Of a stretch of DNA of 64,000 bases, positions 11,025-57,652 are shown in pieces. The stretch covers positions 186,001 through 250,000 of the forward strand of contig MAAO01000008.1 of the NCBI GenBank assembly GCA_002163155.1, written 5' to 3'. Each line of letters opens with the position of its first letter. Position 1 is the stretch's first letter. The DNA comes from Halobacteriovorax marinus. GTDB taxonomy: Bacteria > Bdellovibrionota > Bacteriovoracia > Bacteriovoracales > Bacteriovoracaceae. The position numbers were made by a program, and so were the translations under genes. The notes beneath the pieces are model-generated. The model saw only the letters and a list, made by a program, of their open reading frames with translations. It did no database searches and was not told the DNA's origin.

Positions 11025-11837
11025 TTAAATAATTATAGCATCGTTATGTTTGAGCTCTTCTTCTAGGTAATTATAAGCTTTCTTGTACTGATAAAATGGA
11101 ATTTTTGGATAGAGATGATGAATTAAATGGTAACTCTGACAAGCGGTGAAATACTTTAAAAGTGTTCCTTGGATAATCCTAGAACTTCTATACTTACCTT
11201 GCTCTTCATGCGGATGATGAGGAATCCAAGCAAATACAATAGATAATATACTCAAACCTATTATTCCTGGTAGTGCCCAAGTTAAAAGTGGATACTTAAA
11301 ACCAAATTTAATCCCAAGAAATATAAAAACTATATTAAAGAGCATGTTAAAGAAAATAGTATTTCTCATAAGTTTCTTATTTTCTAACGATTTAAGTTTC
11401 AAAACATTAAAGTAGGCCACGATAAACACCACGACTGATTTAATTAGGGCCATAGGAAGCGATGATGAATGAATATAAAAGTCTGGATCCTTATATGGAT
11501 GATTTGTATTGGCATGGTGTTTTAGGTGCTGAAGTTTTAAAATAGGAAAGGGTGCAAAGAGAGGAATTCCACTTAAGTACCCAATCAATGTCTCAACAGG
11601 CTTCATTCTTTTATTCCTGCCACTAATAGAGCCATGAGTGGCTTCATGCATGGGAGTGAAGAGAAAGTAGGCCAAGAGAGAATTTATAAGTACGCAATAC
11701 TTTAATGGTAACTGATCTGTGTATCCCAAATATGTCGTAAGCATATAAGCTGAGAAGAGAACAATAAAGAACATAATAGTGGGTAAGGCCACTATCTCTG
11801 TTGCTATTATTTTTCGTTTCTCTAACTTTGATTGCAT
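11025..11837 (-). CDS. Fatty-acid desaturase / carotenoid hydroxylase family membrane protein
   Basis: Integral membrane di-iron enzyme of 270 residues with all three histidine boxes of the desaturase superfamily: HEATH (64-68), HLKHH (104-108) and HLIHH (237-241). Several hydrophobic helices lie between them. The pattern HxxxH, HxxHH, HxxHH and the short length resemble beta-carotene hydroxylases of the CrtR type as well as short acyl desaturases, so the substrate is open. No carotenoid genes are nearby. It is transcribed alone. Confidence 0.82.
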   Translation of the reverse strand: MQSKLEKRKIIATEIVALPTIMFFIVLFSAYMLTTYLGYTDQLPLKYCVLINSLLAYFLFTPMHEATHGSISGRNKRMKPVETLIGYLSGIPLFAPFPILKLQHLKHHANTNHPYKDPDFYIHSSSLPMALIKSVVVFIVAYFNVLKLKSLENKKLMRNTIFFNMLFNIVFIFLGIKFGFKYPLLTWALPGIIGLSILSIVFAWIPHHPHEEQGKYRSSRIIQGTLLKYFTACQSYHLIHHLYPKIPFYQYKKAYNYLEEELKHNDAIII

Positions 11838-12014: not shown

Positions 12015-12665
12015 TTAAAGAAGGAAGAAAGTATCGAAGCTATCTTCAAAGAAGTAAGTATGACATTGTCCAGTGGTTGAGTTTCCATTTCTAGAAACAT
12101 TATACTTTAAAACATTGCCACTTATCGTGACTCCAATAGTGCTATTACTATTAGAAAACTCGAAAGCTTCTACTCTATTTCCATAGAAATATTTTTCAGA
12201 AGTGAGAGTTTCTTCAGAGTTAGAATTTAATTTTGAAAAGTAGAGTTTTGCTCTTCCTTCAAAAAGATCAATTTCTAAATCGAATTCAAATTCATCAGAA
12301 CGACAGACACTAACAAGGTCAAGAAGATCTTCTCTCTCAAGACTACTTTGTACGAAAAGAGTTGGCCTCATGTATTTGTAACTAGCTCTTGCCCAACAAG
12401 TATCACCATCATTATTGTAATAAAATTCCATCCAACGAGCATCATCACTATCTAATTTCCACTTTCTAGTGGTCTCATGAATTCCATCTCTCTTAAATCG
12501 TTTTAATTTCTTATATTCTTTTCCTGGACCTTTTCTACAATTAAGAGACGAGGCAGTAATACGAAAGGCATCGACTTGTATGATGGCCCTAATAGGAATA
12601 TCCATCGTGCTACCAGCAAATACATTAAATGAGATTAGGCTTAAGGCCATGACTAATTTTTTCAT
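12015..12665 (-). CDS. Secreted SH3-domain protein coupled to the large protease
   Basis: Exported 216-residue protein with a signal peptide (about 1-17). A bacterial SH3-type domain covers roughly 35-105, with the characteristic ASSLNCRKGPGKEYKKL start and closing WARASYKYMRP. The second half is a beta-rich region without a recognised domain and with three cysteines. Its ATG overlaps the stop codon of the upstream 1045-residue protease gene by one base (TAATG), so translation is coupled. Bacterial SH3 domains often bind cell-wall peptides, so it may anchor or guide the protease; that is inference. Confidence 0.78.
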   Translation of the reverse strand: MKKLVMALSLISFNVFAGSTMDIPIRAIIQVDAFRITASSLNCRKGPGKEYKKLKRFKRDGIHETTRKWKLDSDDARWMEFYYNNDGDTCWARASYKYMRPTLFVQSSLEREDLLDLVSVCRSDEFEFDLEIDLFEGRAKLYFSKLNSNSEETLTSEKYFYGNRVEAFEFSNSNSTIGVTISGNVLKYNVSRNGNSTTGQCHTYFFEDSFDTFFLL

Positions 12666-15600
12666 TAGTTAACACTCCTAAAAGTTGTTCGACGATTTAG
12701 AATAACACCTGTTGTCCCTAGGGAATAATTATCAGTGTCATCATCAAGTATTGTATTTCTAACAAATTTTGCAGAACTTGATTCTTTTGCAATTAAGACG
12801 TAATTTTTAATCATATCGAATGTATTAAAATAAATATCTGCAGTTGTATCACCATCTAAATAGATACCATGATAACTTTCTTTTATCGTATTTCTTATAA
12901 TAGAAGCCGTAGCATTATCATTTAAACTTACTGCACTAGCTTTCTCAGAAAGAATTTCATTACGCTCTATAATTGTGTAAGAGTCAGCACTAGCTTTTAT
13001 TCCCATATCTCTACAATAAACAAGTTTATTATCAACTATAGATGTTCTAGCAAACTTACCCATTTCTAGACATTCGTCAGCATTCTTAATTGTATTCTTA
13101 TTAAAGTGAGTCACAAAACTATTATCTTGCTTTTCATAAGAGACCCATAACACCCAACCTTCAGGCATATTAAAAAAGTTATCCTCTATGATACCTGTAG
13201 CTTTATCATTTATTGAAATGGCTCCAGACTTGATAGGTGTTGTAAACTTAGAGTTTCTAATTCCGAAAGCTGCAGTGTCCGCACTAGTCACGGCTTTTTT
13301 TCTGAACTCATTAAAGATGATATTATTTATTTTGATTCCAGAGTTTCCATAAGAATTGATCCCATAATTTATATTACGAAATTCAGAATCACTGAGAGTT
13401 ACTCCAGCATTACCAGAAACTTTTATTCCCTGATACATAGATTCAAATTTAAGATCCTTAGCAAAGAGCTTAGCATCATCAATCATAGCGATACCAGAAC
13501 CAGTACTTTTAATATCGGAACCAGCAAACCTAACATTCTCTAGCGTTGTCACACCTTTTGAAAGTATAAGTATCCCATTAGTGTTCTTATTTTCATCGTC
13601 ATCAACACCATCTAATGAAGGTTGATAAAATTTAATATTTTCAATTTTAAACTCTTCAGCAGAAATTTCAAGAGTTGCATCCTTTACTCCACCAGAATCT
13701 AACTCATTCGTTCCCTCAAAAATCACTCCAGCACCAACTCCAAGAAGAGTAAGATTCTTTGTAATCACAACTCTTGTGAGTGTATATGTTCCTGGATAAA
13801 CTTTAATCGTAGAACCAGGCTCAGCAAGCTCTACTAAGTCTAAGAGACTCATTCCTCCTGGTTTGAGCTCAGGATTGGTAGGATCACCATAAGGAGTATA
13901 GAGATTGGTAAAAACCGTTAAGTTTTGATCTCTCGCTATATAGTAAGGTTTAGTTTCTCTACTCCCACCAATAAAAGGAGTGGCGCCTTTTCTAAGGAGA
14001 AATCTAGCCACCTGTAACTTCTGATTTAGAGTTGCGTAAGCAAGTGCTGTGTAACCATTTACATCTACAAAGTTGATAGTTTCTTTTGAAGATGTTTTTA
14101 AGATAAGTTTTATAAGACGAAGATCATTACTTTTTACCGCCTCAATTAATAGGTTTGATCCCTGTGAATCATATTCCTTATTGATATCGAAAACTTCTGG
14201 GAAATTTTTAATTAAGAATTGTACTAGTTTTACATTTCTTTCCATAACAGCAAGAAAGAGTAAATCAACATCCCCTTCCCCATAACCTAGGTCAAATCCT
14301 CGACTGGCCAAGAATGAAATCATCTCGGTGTCCCTAAACTCAAGGGCAATATATCTATTTGTTGAATTAATAGAAAAGATCAGTCCAAGTTCTTCCATAC
14401 TATTAATAAAAGAAATATTCTTAGACTTAATTGAGGCGCTAACAACATCACCGGAGAAAGGATACTTCTTTAAGTTAATATCAATTCTTTGATCTTTTAA
14501 AATTTCTTCTACAGCTGTTAGGTCTGCAGATTCTAAAGCACTTAGGTAATTCTTTTCAAGTTCAAATCTAGCGTTAATTTCATTATCAAGCGCCAAAAGG
14601 AAATCATTATTTCCTAATTCAGAAATGGCCTGCTTAATCGTTCTTCCATCAATATCTGTTCTAGCGAAATCTATTTGTCCTAGAGACAATAAATAAAAAA
14701 AGAGTTCTAAATTATCATTATCAACTGCCTGAATAATAGGAGTTTGACCCCAAAAGTTTAGAGCATTGATATTGGCTCCACTTGCTATATAACCAGCAAT
14801 GGACTCTTGCACTTCTATAGAAAAATCAAAGACTTCATCTAAGTAACTTAGGAGGTTTTCAGTTTCAGGACTAAATGTATCTGAATTTCCACCATCAGTA
14901 GGATTTGTTGCGGGGACATTAGTAATATATTTTTCTAATTCAGCGACTGAAATTAAAGTCACTCCTTCTCCACCACATTCTTGTCCACCTGGCTCATTAT
15001 CACAAACATTGACTCTAAAGCACCCATCTGTCTCATCCTCTACATAGTCAGTAGCACCATTAACGAGAATTCCAACGATTTCCTTAGTATCTACGTTAAA
15101 TACAGCGGAACCAGAGTTTCCTCCAAATGTATCAAGGTTGGTTTCAAATGAAGTCGATCCTACAGAATAAACTTGAGCACCTGGAGCAATCTTAGTAGGA
15201 AGTCCAGTAGGATGACCAATAACTAGGATCTCCTGTCCTTTAACTACCGTTGTCTCTTGATATCTTAAAGGAGCTCTACCGAGTACATTTCGATCAAGGA
15301 GAAGAACTGCAAAGTCCTTTGGGTCATCTCCCCTATTTAGGATTTTCTTACAGTTATAGACATTATCTTTTGAGATTCTATTTGTTTTAGCAGCTTCGCT
15401 ATCCCAACCAAATACCCAAGATCTATCGTTACAGTCTTCTTGTGAAGTAATGCAATGTCCTGCAGTCACAACAACATTAGGTGCAACTAAGAATCCAGAA
15501 CAATTTGGAAGCATATTTTGATTATAATATCTCTCATCAGAACAGAGTTCTCCATTACTAAACCAAGGACCAAACAATCTTTCGCTCATAGGAGAATTCT

Positions 15601-15802
15601 CGTAGGAAAAATAATTCCCCATATCAGAGAGATCACTCTTATCAACCATCCCAGCTGTTGAATCAGCGAGAAGCTGAAGATCTGCGGGGGCATCAGAATA
15701 TTCCATTCTATTATCTTCGCCGTAGGCCACTTTTGGAACGTCAGCAGAAGCATAACTAGAAAAAATAGACATTATTACAAAAATCAAGACATTTGATTTC
15801 AA
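12665..15802 (-). CDS. Secreted V8/trypsin-like protease with ankyrin repeats and a parallel beta-helix
   Basis: Very large secreted protein (1045 residues) with three modules. A signal peptide (1-20) is followed by the YGEDNR signature and an S1-family protease domain with a complete triad: His116 (TAGHC), Asp163 and Ser230 (GGNSGSAVF, as in V8-like enzymes). Residues about 315-640 form ankyrin-like repeats (for example NALNFWGQTPIIQAV and VNGYTALAYAT). Residues about 655-1035 form a right-handed parallel beta-helix of the pectate-lyase/NosD type, with many N-G and N-T turns. It begins at TTG, supported by AGGAG 7 bases upstream. It is coupled to the SH3 gene. A role in digesting or binding prey or polysaccharide is speculative. 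Confidence 0.85.
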   Translation of the reverse strand: MKSNVLIFVIMSIFSSYASADVPKVAYGEDNRMEYSDAPADLQLLADSTAGMVDKSDLSDMGNYFSYENSPMSERLFGPWFSNGELCSDERYYNQNMLPNCSGFLVAPNVVVTAGHCITSQEDCNDRSWVFGWDSEAAKTNRISKDNVYNCKKILNRGDDPKDFAVLLLDRNVLGRAPLRYQETTVVKGQEILVIGHPTGLPTKIAPGAQVYSVGSTSFETNLDTFGGNSGSAVFNVDTKEIVGILVNGATDYVEDETDGCFRVNVCDNEPGGQECGGEGVTLISVAELEKYITNVPATNPTDGGNSDTFSPETENLLSYLDEVFDFSIEVQESIAGYIASGANINALNFWGQTPIIQAVDNDNLELFFYLLSLGQIDFARTDIDGRTIKQAISELGNNDFLLALDNEINARFELEKNYLSALESADLTAVEEILKDQRIDINLKKYPFSGDVVSASIKSKNISFINSMEELGLIFSINSTNRYIALEFRDTEMISFLASRGFDLGYGEGDVDLLFLAVMERNVKLVQFLIKNFPEVFDINKEYDSQGSNLLIEAVKSNDLRLIKLILKTSSKETINFVDVNGYTALAYATLNQKLQVARFLLRKGATPFIGGSRETKPYYIARDQNLTVFTNLYTPYGDPTNPELKPGGMSLLDLVELAEPGSTIKVYPGTYTLTRVVITKNLTLLGVGAGVIFEGTNELDSGGVKDATLEISAEEFKIENIKFYQPSLDGVDDDENKNTNGILILSKGVTTLENVRFAGSDIKSTGSGIAMIDDAKLFAKDLKFESMYQGIKVSGNAGVTLSDSEFRNINYGINSYGNSGIKINNIIFNEFRKKAVTSADTAAFGIRNSKFTTPIKSGAISINDKATGIIEDNFFNMPEGWVLWVSYEKQDNSFVTHFNKNTIKNADECLEMGKFARTSIVDNKLVYCRDMGIKASADSYTIIERNEILSEKASAVSLNDNATASIIRNTIKESYHGIYLDGDTTADIYFNTFDMIKNYVLIAKESSSAKFVRNTILDDDTDNYSLGTTGVILNRRTTFRSVN

Positions 15803-31893: not shown

Positions 31894-32763
31894 TTAATTT
31901 GAATGAAAGTCCGTTCTTAGAATACGGGTTACTTCTTCTCCTTCAGAGCAGTTTGAAGCAGTACACTTTTTAAGGACCTTACACAGACCCCTCGTTTGAT
32001 AATCAGGGCGGCCTCTAACGAGTACACCTTCGACTTCAAAGGACTTAGCATTAAAGACTGGTGATCCCGAATTATTATGAAAGGCATCAAGGTCAGTTCT
32101 AAAAAAAACGGAATCACTATTTTCAAAAATGTTCGCCTGGTCCGCAACTTTTAGTGGAAGACCACTAGGAGTTCCAATCATAAAAACAGAAGTTCTATTC
32201 TCCACCTTCCCTTCAGTTCTTAACTTAAGAGGTGTGCGACCTTCTACATTTCGATCAAGTTCAATAATGGCGTAGTCTAACTTAGTACCTGATTTATCAT
32301 TCACGGATCTAATAACTTTCTTACAATTGTATACGTCATTTGTCGCAAGCTGATGGCGGTCGTAGGGAGGAAATGGTCCGGAGACATTCTCAATATTGTA
32401 ATCAAAAACGAAGGAAGTTGAACTACAGTGATAACTAGTAGAGATACAATGGCCGGCCGTCATAACTTTATTAGGGGCCACTAAAAATGCGGTACAATTG
32501 GACGCCGAAGGTTGTCCCTGGAAGGGAACTTCACGGCAAAATTTTTCAAATTCACCATAGATACCAAATACTATTTCATAGAGCTCATCTTTACGCTTTA
32601 AATGACTTTTATAGAACATGGCAGCTACAGACTTAGACAACTCTCTAACTCTACTATCTGGATGAAGACTAGCTTCTTGCCGATCATCTTCCCCGTACAC
32701 GGCCTTCTCAGAAGCCAGAGTAGATATTTGTAACAGAATAAGCAATAGAAATAATGTTTTCAT
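31894..32763 (-). CDS. Secreted V8/trypsin-like serine protease
   Basis: A 289-residue secreted protease. A signal peptide (1-18) is followed by the AVYGEDDR signature shared with the two other proteases of the window. The S1-type triad is complete: His104 (TAGHC), Asp163 and Ser232, where the usual GGNSGS reads HNNSGSPVF, so the two glycines before Asn are lost while Ser and Gly are kept. This change is near the oxyanion hole and could affect activity. Six or more cysteines suggest disulphides. It has a promoter region of its own and no obvious inhibitor gene nearby. Confidence 0.85.
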   Translation of the reverse strand: MKTLFLLLILLQISTLASEKAVYGEDDRQEASLHPDSRVRELSKSVAAMFYKSHLKRKDELYEIVFGIYGEFEKFCREVPFQGQPSASNCTAFLVAPNKVMTAGHCISTSYHCSSTSFVFDYNIENVSGPFPPYDRHQLATNDVYNCKKVIRSVNDKSGTKLDYAIIELDRNVEGRTPLKLRTEGKVENRTSVFMIGTPSGLPLKVADQANIFENSDSVFFRTDLDAFHNNSGSPVFNAKSFEVEGVLVRGRPDYQTRGLCKVLKKCTASNCSEGEEVTRILRTDFHSN

Positions 32764-56617: not shown

Positions 56618-57652
56618 TTAAAGAGTAAATTGACCATCTAATGAGAAATCGAAACTAAAGTCAATATCTTCAAAGTTATAGTCTTCAAAGTCATAATCTT
56701 CTACTACAACAGCTTTAAAAGGTGATTCATACGCTGAGCTTGGATCTTCATTCTTAGTGATCGCTTCAGTAATTCCAACCATTGAGATTCTTGTAACTTC
56801 TTCACCGTCACATCCGTAACCACCGTACTCTTCACACATATTAACAGTCATACAAGAATTACCAGCTTCATCTTTTACTCTACTGTAATCTTTTGCCCCT
56901 CTCACTAGAATCCCTTCAACTTCTCCAGTAGTTGCATTAAATACTGCAGAACCAGAATTACCACCAAAAGTATCTAAATCAGCTTCAAAGTAAACATCAT
57001 TTGTATTGACCTTAACAACAGAGTCACCAGCGATTTTAAGTGGTAGTCCTGATGGAGAACCGATAACAACTAGACCATCTTCAAGAGCAATTTTTCCTTC
57101 CGTTCTAAACTTTAAAGGAGCTCTTCCTTCAACAACTCTATCAAGTTCAATTAAAGCGTAATCACTCTTAGTCGCACCATCAAGTTGTTGCTTTATAACT
57201 CTCTTACAAGAATAAACTTTACTAGCTTCTAAATTATAATCTTCAATTTCACCTTTCTTATAATCAAATACCCATTTGGAACCTGAACAGTCTGACAATG
57301 AGGCCATACAGTGACCTGCAGTTACAAGGTACTTATCTCCAACAAGAAATCCTGAACAATTTCCTATCGCTAATTGATTTTCAAATTTCTCACCCTTACA
57401 AAGAGGAACTCCCCAGCTAAGTTGTGGCATGAACTGAGCAAGTGTTGTTTGAGCTAGATCATATGATCCATTATCTTTAAGTGTTAAATTCTTATTAGGG
57501 ATTTGCGTTGCTGTAGAAAGAGATAATTCCTTCATTATAGTGTTAGCACTATCAACTACATCAACTCTATTATCTTCACCGTAAGCTACTTTCTCTGTTG
57601 CACTTACACTGATGACACTACTTAATAATACTATGGCCGTAATTTTTTTCAT
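56618..57652 (-). CDS. Secreted V8/trypsin-like serine protease with acidic-aromatic tail
   Basis: A 344-residue secreted protease. A signal peptide (1-19) precedes the KVAYGEDNR signature. The triad is complete: His114 (TAGHC), Asp164 (SDYALIEL) and Ser233 (GGNSGSAVF). Several paired cysteines are conserved with the two paralogues. The C-terminal tail (318-338) repeats Glu-Asp-Tyr/Asn/Ile-Phe units, an acidic-aromatic run absent from the others. GGGGAG precedes the ATG, and an intrinsic terminator follows. Role probably extracellular proteolysis. Confidence 0.88.
   Translation of the reverse strand: MKKITAIVLLSSVISVSATEKVAYGEDNRVDVVDSANTIMKELSLSTATQIPNKNLTLKDNGSYDLAQTTLAQFMPQLSWGVPLCKGEKFENQLAIGNCSGFLVGDKYLVTAGHCMASLSDCSGSKWVFDYKKGEIEDYNLEASKVYSCKRVIKQQLDGATKSDYALIELDRVVEGRAPLKFRTEGKIALEDGLVVIGSPSGLPLKIAGDSVVKVNTNDVYFEADLDTFGGNSGSAVFNATTGEVEGILVRGAKDYSRVKDEAGNSCMTVNMCEEYGGYGCDGEEVTRISMVGITEAITKNEDPSSAYESPFKAVVVEDYDFEDYNFEDIDFSFDFSLDGQFTL

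Follow-up and report, generated by a model that had tools for sequence, protein, structure and literature searches.

In the window (the whole 64,000-nucleotide stretch of Halobacteriovorax marinus DNA that was analysed), a single open reading frame without an internal stop encodes a protein of 1045 amino acids in which a signal peptide, an S1 serine protease, about ten ankyrin repeats (a number estimated from the length of the block) and a right-handed beta-helix are joined in one chain. This three-part order is real and unusual in its full form, and it is built from known parts: the BspK-type protease, the ankyrin repeats and the helix are each already known and the S1-ankyrin order is recurrent in the family, the new element being the addition of the beta-helix. 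The reading preferred here, held with about even confidence, is that of an exported BspK-family protease with a predicted preference for lysine, which would have gained its ankyrin and helix tail in this species and would be aimed by it. The gene, its start signals, the parts of its product and the gene downstream of it are located as follows.

12665-15802, minus strand: S1-ankyrin-beta-helix gene, TTG start, stop TAA at 12667-12665, 1045 amino acids
15809-15814, minus strand: Shine-Dalgarno sequence AAGGAG, 6 nt 5' of the TTG, read in the sequence
15743-15802, minus strand: signal peptide, residues 1-20 (MKSNVLIFVIMSIFSSYASA, followed by DV), sequence pattern judged by eye
14915-15730, minus strand: BspK-type S1 protease domain, residues 25-296 (Pfam Trypsin_2, triad, AF2, fold match)
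15457-15455, 15316-15314 and 15115-15113, minus strand: catalytic H116, D163 and S230, invariant in the alignment
13868-14857, minus strand: ankyrin arm, residues ~316-645 (Pfam Ank_2, Ank_3, Ank_4 and Ank; consensus scan; partial AF2 model)
12743-13849, minus strand: right-handed beta-helix, residues ~652-1020 (Pfam Beta_helix and NosD; AF2 strand coils)
12015-12665, minus strand: orphan gene, 216 amino acids, predicted exported SH3-like protein (open reading frame; signal peptide judged by eye)
12679-12675, minus strand: AGGAG belonging to the 216-residue gene, read in the sequence

That one frame joins these three parts, as the first-pass annotation had proposed, was confirmed: the frame is intact and all three parts exceed the Pfam gathering cut-offs (trypsin-like at residues 101-245, ankyrin at ~335-640 and beta-helix at ~660-1020), the search having been run on the whole 1045-residue protein and then repeated on the separated pieces. 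Support is strong for the protease and the ankyrin repeats and comes mainly from profile HMMs for the helix. The same annotation had called the protein secreted, of which the N-terminal signal peptide is the part that stands: from this signal peptide the protein is predicted to be exported via Sec, and a periplasmic and a released location are not separable from the sequence.

The protease fold begins at residue 25, directly after the signal peptide, and is modelled by AF2 (68-row alignment) at a pLDDT of ~95, with Pfam Trypsin_2 scoring 62 bits. The triad His116/Asp163/Ser230, reported as complete from the outset, is unchanged across the 68 aligned sequences, in which the six cysteines of the domain are likewise invariant. 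The description of the domain as V8-like holds for its fold only. Residues 25-296 superpose on Staphylococcus epidermidis Esp and on V8 with Z ~21 and an rmsd of 2.7 over 196 aligned residues (VIA-align), and the catalytic triad is common to both sides; these glutamyl endopeptidases (S1B) differ, however, in being single-domain proteins, in their identity of only ~18-24% and in the S1 pocket. In glutamyl endopeptidases, a histidine at chymotrypsin position 213 is the pocket residue for glutamate specificity. Its counterpart in 1p3c, the glutamyl endopeptidase of Bacillus intermedius, aligns with Leu246, which is leucine in 68 of 68 sequences, and V8-type specificity was rejected on account of this replacement. 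An aspartate six residues N-terminal of Ser230 is also invariant, but it is found in the Glu-specific 1p3c as well and so does not decide specificity.

Judged by its sequence, the protease is a BspK-family S1 enzyme, with BspK as its closest characterised relative. It is 43% identical to L161, which lies at an ortholog-like locus of Bdellovibrio bacteriovorus, and, counted from its GTG, L161 has the domain-start cysteine at 99 and the active serine at 230 (placed by hand on the alignment), the same numbers as published for BspK; kinship with BspK was thus judged through L161 and the published residue numbers (PMC5288813). BspK (Bd1962 of B. bacteriovorus) is secreted, cuts after lysine, cleaves itself and requires Ser230; it had been annotated as V8-like although it was shown to cut after lysine, and the authors of that work suspected binding of the substrate and catalysis to be separate (PMC5288813). 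The two proteins share the S1 domain family, the active serine at 230, the domain-start cysteine and a signal peptide, whereas BspK is a single domain of 31 kDa to which the 1045-residue protein adds ~750 residues of ankyrin repeats and beta-helix. Cleavage after lysine is predicted from this homology, at ~43% identity, and not from the aspartate before Ser230.

Proteases of the BspK type are present in most of the relatives' genomes. Two further ones lie in the window itself (56633-57628 and 31987-32745, both on the minus strand, in frames of 355 and 296 amino acids), and in another genome of the genus (G002:C3:490550-493826) a gene related to the window's desaturase (11025-11837) stands between two of them. 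Other proteases of these genomes (L060, L131, L147, L071, L062, L078 and L156) carry other C-terminal additions: pre-peptidase/proprotein-convertase-like domains and a common tail of ~90 residues of unknown kind with a KFLDLCGL-like motif.

In the ankyrin arm, Ank_2 scores 61-67 bits in three stretches, and Ank_3, Ank_4 and Ank also lie above their cut-offs; a consensus scan places the best repeats at 349, 545 and 580 and weaker ones at 413, 476, 508 and 612. The AF2 model of this block reaches a pLDDT of 75-93 at residues 515-610 and 57-78 at 390-440, the remainder being low. The S1-ankyrin order is not restricted to this protein. Across 129 genomes of the family (Bacteriovoracaceae/Halobacteriovoraceae, Bdellovibrionota), at least 37 proteins extend well into the ankyrin part of a profile built from five such proteins, a lower bound counted by hand among the matches listed, with ankyrin repeats confirmed directly only in those proteins whose sequence was examined. 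Like the protein described here, those S1-ankyrin proteins (among them L092, L105, L119, L120 and L128) have a signal peptide, a BspK-type protease and C-terminal ankyrin repeats, but their ankyrin part is shorter, their frames are mostly 390-590 amino acids long, no beta-helix was seen in them and their origins are separate. The initial claim that the domain order was undescribed therefore survives for the three-part form, which was not found elsewhere, but not for the combination of S1 protease and ankyrin repeats; in the literature searched, no description was found either of the S1-ankyrin theme or of the architecture with the beta-helix.

On a tree of the protease domain, drawn from a sample of the family and with groups named after their domains had been seen, the S1-ankyrin fusions require four changes, of which supported branches force three or more. 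Placing all S1-ankyrin fusions in a single clade was rejected (p-AU 1.85e-6), as was constraining the twelve other fusions together (p-AU 0.004), and the 1045-residue protein clusters with five genes from its genus and close relatives that encode the protease alone (support 100/97). By this tree, ankyrin repeats were fused to a BspK-type protease about four separate times, and the fusion studied here arose apart from the others. Because such fusions recur with about four origins, a recurrent advantage is suggested. None of the four other genomes in the genus has the tail, so the protease can fulfil its basic role without it.

What the ankyrin arm may do can be compared with Bd3460, an exported ankyrin protein that blocks the predator's own DD-endopeptidases with its repeats over the active-site cleft (PMC4686830). 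Both are exported ankyrin-repeat proteins and Bd3460 acts on a hydrolase of the predator itself, but it does so in trans and on DD-endopeptidases, whereas here the repeats stand in cis with a protease. The chief rival to aiming, conceivable though on balance unlikely, is that the arm folds back and silences the protease during its export through the cell's own periplasm, as a cis version of Bd3460; cleavage at a lysine in the linker would then switch the protease on. Such self-protection by ankyrin repeats is proven in the same phylum, the repeated fusion of ankyrin repeats to BspK-type proteases would fit, and so would the self-cleavage of BspK after lysine (PMC5288813); most BspK-family proteases, however, have no ankyrin domain, and no separate ankyrin gene was found next to the protease-only ones, with the exception of an open reading frame ~3 kb away in L108.

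A tail that is neutral or merely stabilising, produced by domain shuffling in an ankyrin-rich species and leaving the job of the enzyme unchanged, is rather improbable. It would be in keeping with the source genome (4.55 Mb in 16 contigs), in which 39 ankyrin matches are spread over more than ten open reading frames and trypsin-like matches number 25, this protease among them, and with the restriction of the tail to one species among the genomes compared. Yet the ~750 codons of the tail stay open throughout with host-like codon use, which gave no sign of a recent foreign origin, and fusion of S1 proteases to ankyrin repeats occurred repeatedly. Several ankyrin reading frames of this genome have signal peptides and form an ankyrin-rich exported set. 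The genome also encodes a second protease-ankyrin protein (L059/L234, G000:C15:17000-19700), a lipoprotein-like trypsin-TPR-ankyrin chain of 564 amino acids whose protease belongs to a different subgroup and whose TPR and lipobox were judged by eye.

The beta-helix opens with an N-cap-like motif (SLLDLVELAEPGSTIKVYPGTY) and is matched by Beta_helix (64-68 bits in two stretches) and NosD (53-56 bits), all above the Pfam gathering cut-offs; a hydropathy period search gave no informative signal for it. Single-chain AF2 reached a mean pLDDT of 34, and the 68-row alignment was used instead. With it, structure prediction agrees with the annotated protease and with parts of the ankyrin block; in the helix it gives repeated short-strand coils at a modest pLDDT of ~45-77 for residues 708-831, and again at 957-1015, but residues 840-955, for which there are no homologues, are unmodelled, so that the helix fold rests mainly on the profiles. 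About half of the whole tail is without a confident model. No sequence match to the helix was found in the PDB. In fold searches of the PDB and of viral proteins the protease domain took up the result lists, and the absence of ankyrin or helix structures among their results is no evidence against these parts.

The helix had also been proposed to cleave polysaccharide, a suggestion that found no support. That it actively degrades polysaccharide as a lyase or hydrolase, which would make this a two-enzyme protein against protein and glycan, is very improbable: the pectate-lyase-like superfamily profile PF12708 does score 28-31 bits against a cut-off of 27, but only generic beta-helix, NosD and pectate-lyase-like profiles are matched, no catalytic lyase, glycosidase, GH28 or CE8 family was found on the helix even at E<=10, and the PDB offered no sequence match. 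The helix shares its profile and the N-cap-like motif with NosD and generic right-handed beta-helix proteins, but a role as a NosD copper-maturation protein was rejected, as the match to NCBIfam TIGR04247 scores 37.8 bits where the cut-off is 300. Autotransporter passengers commonly contain helix stalks, and a surface protein of that kind, the helix serving as passenger stalk, was weighed as well; it is barely credible, since Pfam finds no C-terminal translocator barrel, the chain ends just past the helix and the enzyme lies at the N-terminal end.

Matches to beta-helix profiles occur in 72 of the 129 family genomes. Among the family's helix reading frames that were fetched (the best loci and most of those of at least 600 amino acids), none except the 1045-residue protein has an S1 or ankyrin part, and the S1-ankyrin-helix combination was found only here among the 129 genomes. 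The helix sequence has no clear relative in 291 genomes of the phylum, where one weak match of 32% covers the first ~110 residues, and none in viral contigs. A single-sequence search of other genomes' contigs gave no relative of the whole protein, a phage search gave none, and a plasmid search gave three matches, protease-only, in rhizobia.

Aiming by the tail is the simplest reading, because ankyrin repeats are most commonly used to bind proteins and because the authors of the BspK study suspected separate substrate binding. After export, the tail would hold the protease: its ankyrin arm would bind a protein partner, either a substrate or an envelope protein, and the helix would serve as a rigid stalk or as a binder of surfaces or glycans. 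A broadly acting lysyl protease would thereby be aimed at particular targets, most likely proteins of the prey or of the envelope, and self-cleavage after lysine, by analogy with BspK, could later free it from the tail. An attack on another cell's envelope, as first suggested, is plausible for this lineage.

The gene downstream follows directly: its ATG shares a single base with the fusion gene's TAA (TAATG), and this overlap together with its own AGGAG makes co-translation of the two genes probable. Residues 25-112 of the 216-residue product match a cell-wall-binding SH3-like profile weakly (E 6e-4, far below the cut-off), and the protein was found in no other family genome; it is possibly a partner or immunity protein. 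More speculatively, and with little probability in our estimation, ankyrin fusion may have provided this predator family time and again with a cis safety catch, or a device for aiming, on a lysyl protease; in this species a surface anchor formed by the beta-helix and an SH3-like partner that binds the wall and is translated along with the protease would complete a two-gene, self-releasing proteolytic system.

The three-part protein is the extreme case of the S1-ankyrin theme. That one family of secreted proteases in predator-type bacteria acquired ankyrin repeats repeatedly and independently points to selection acting on the aiming or the restraint of such enzymes, and how predators keep their own proteases from damaging them becomes testable in small proteins of ~390-590 amino acids.
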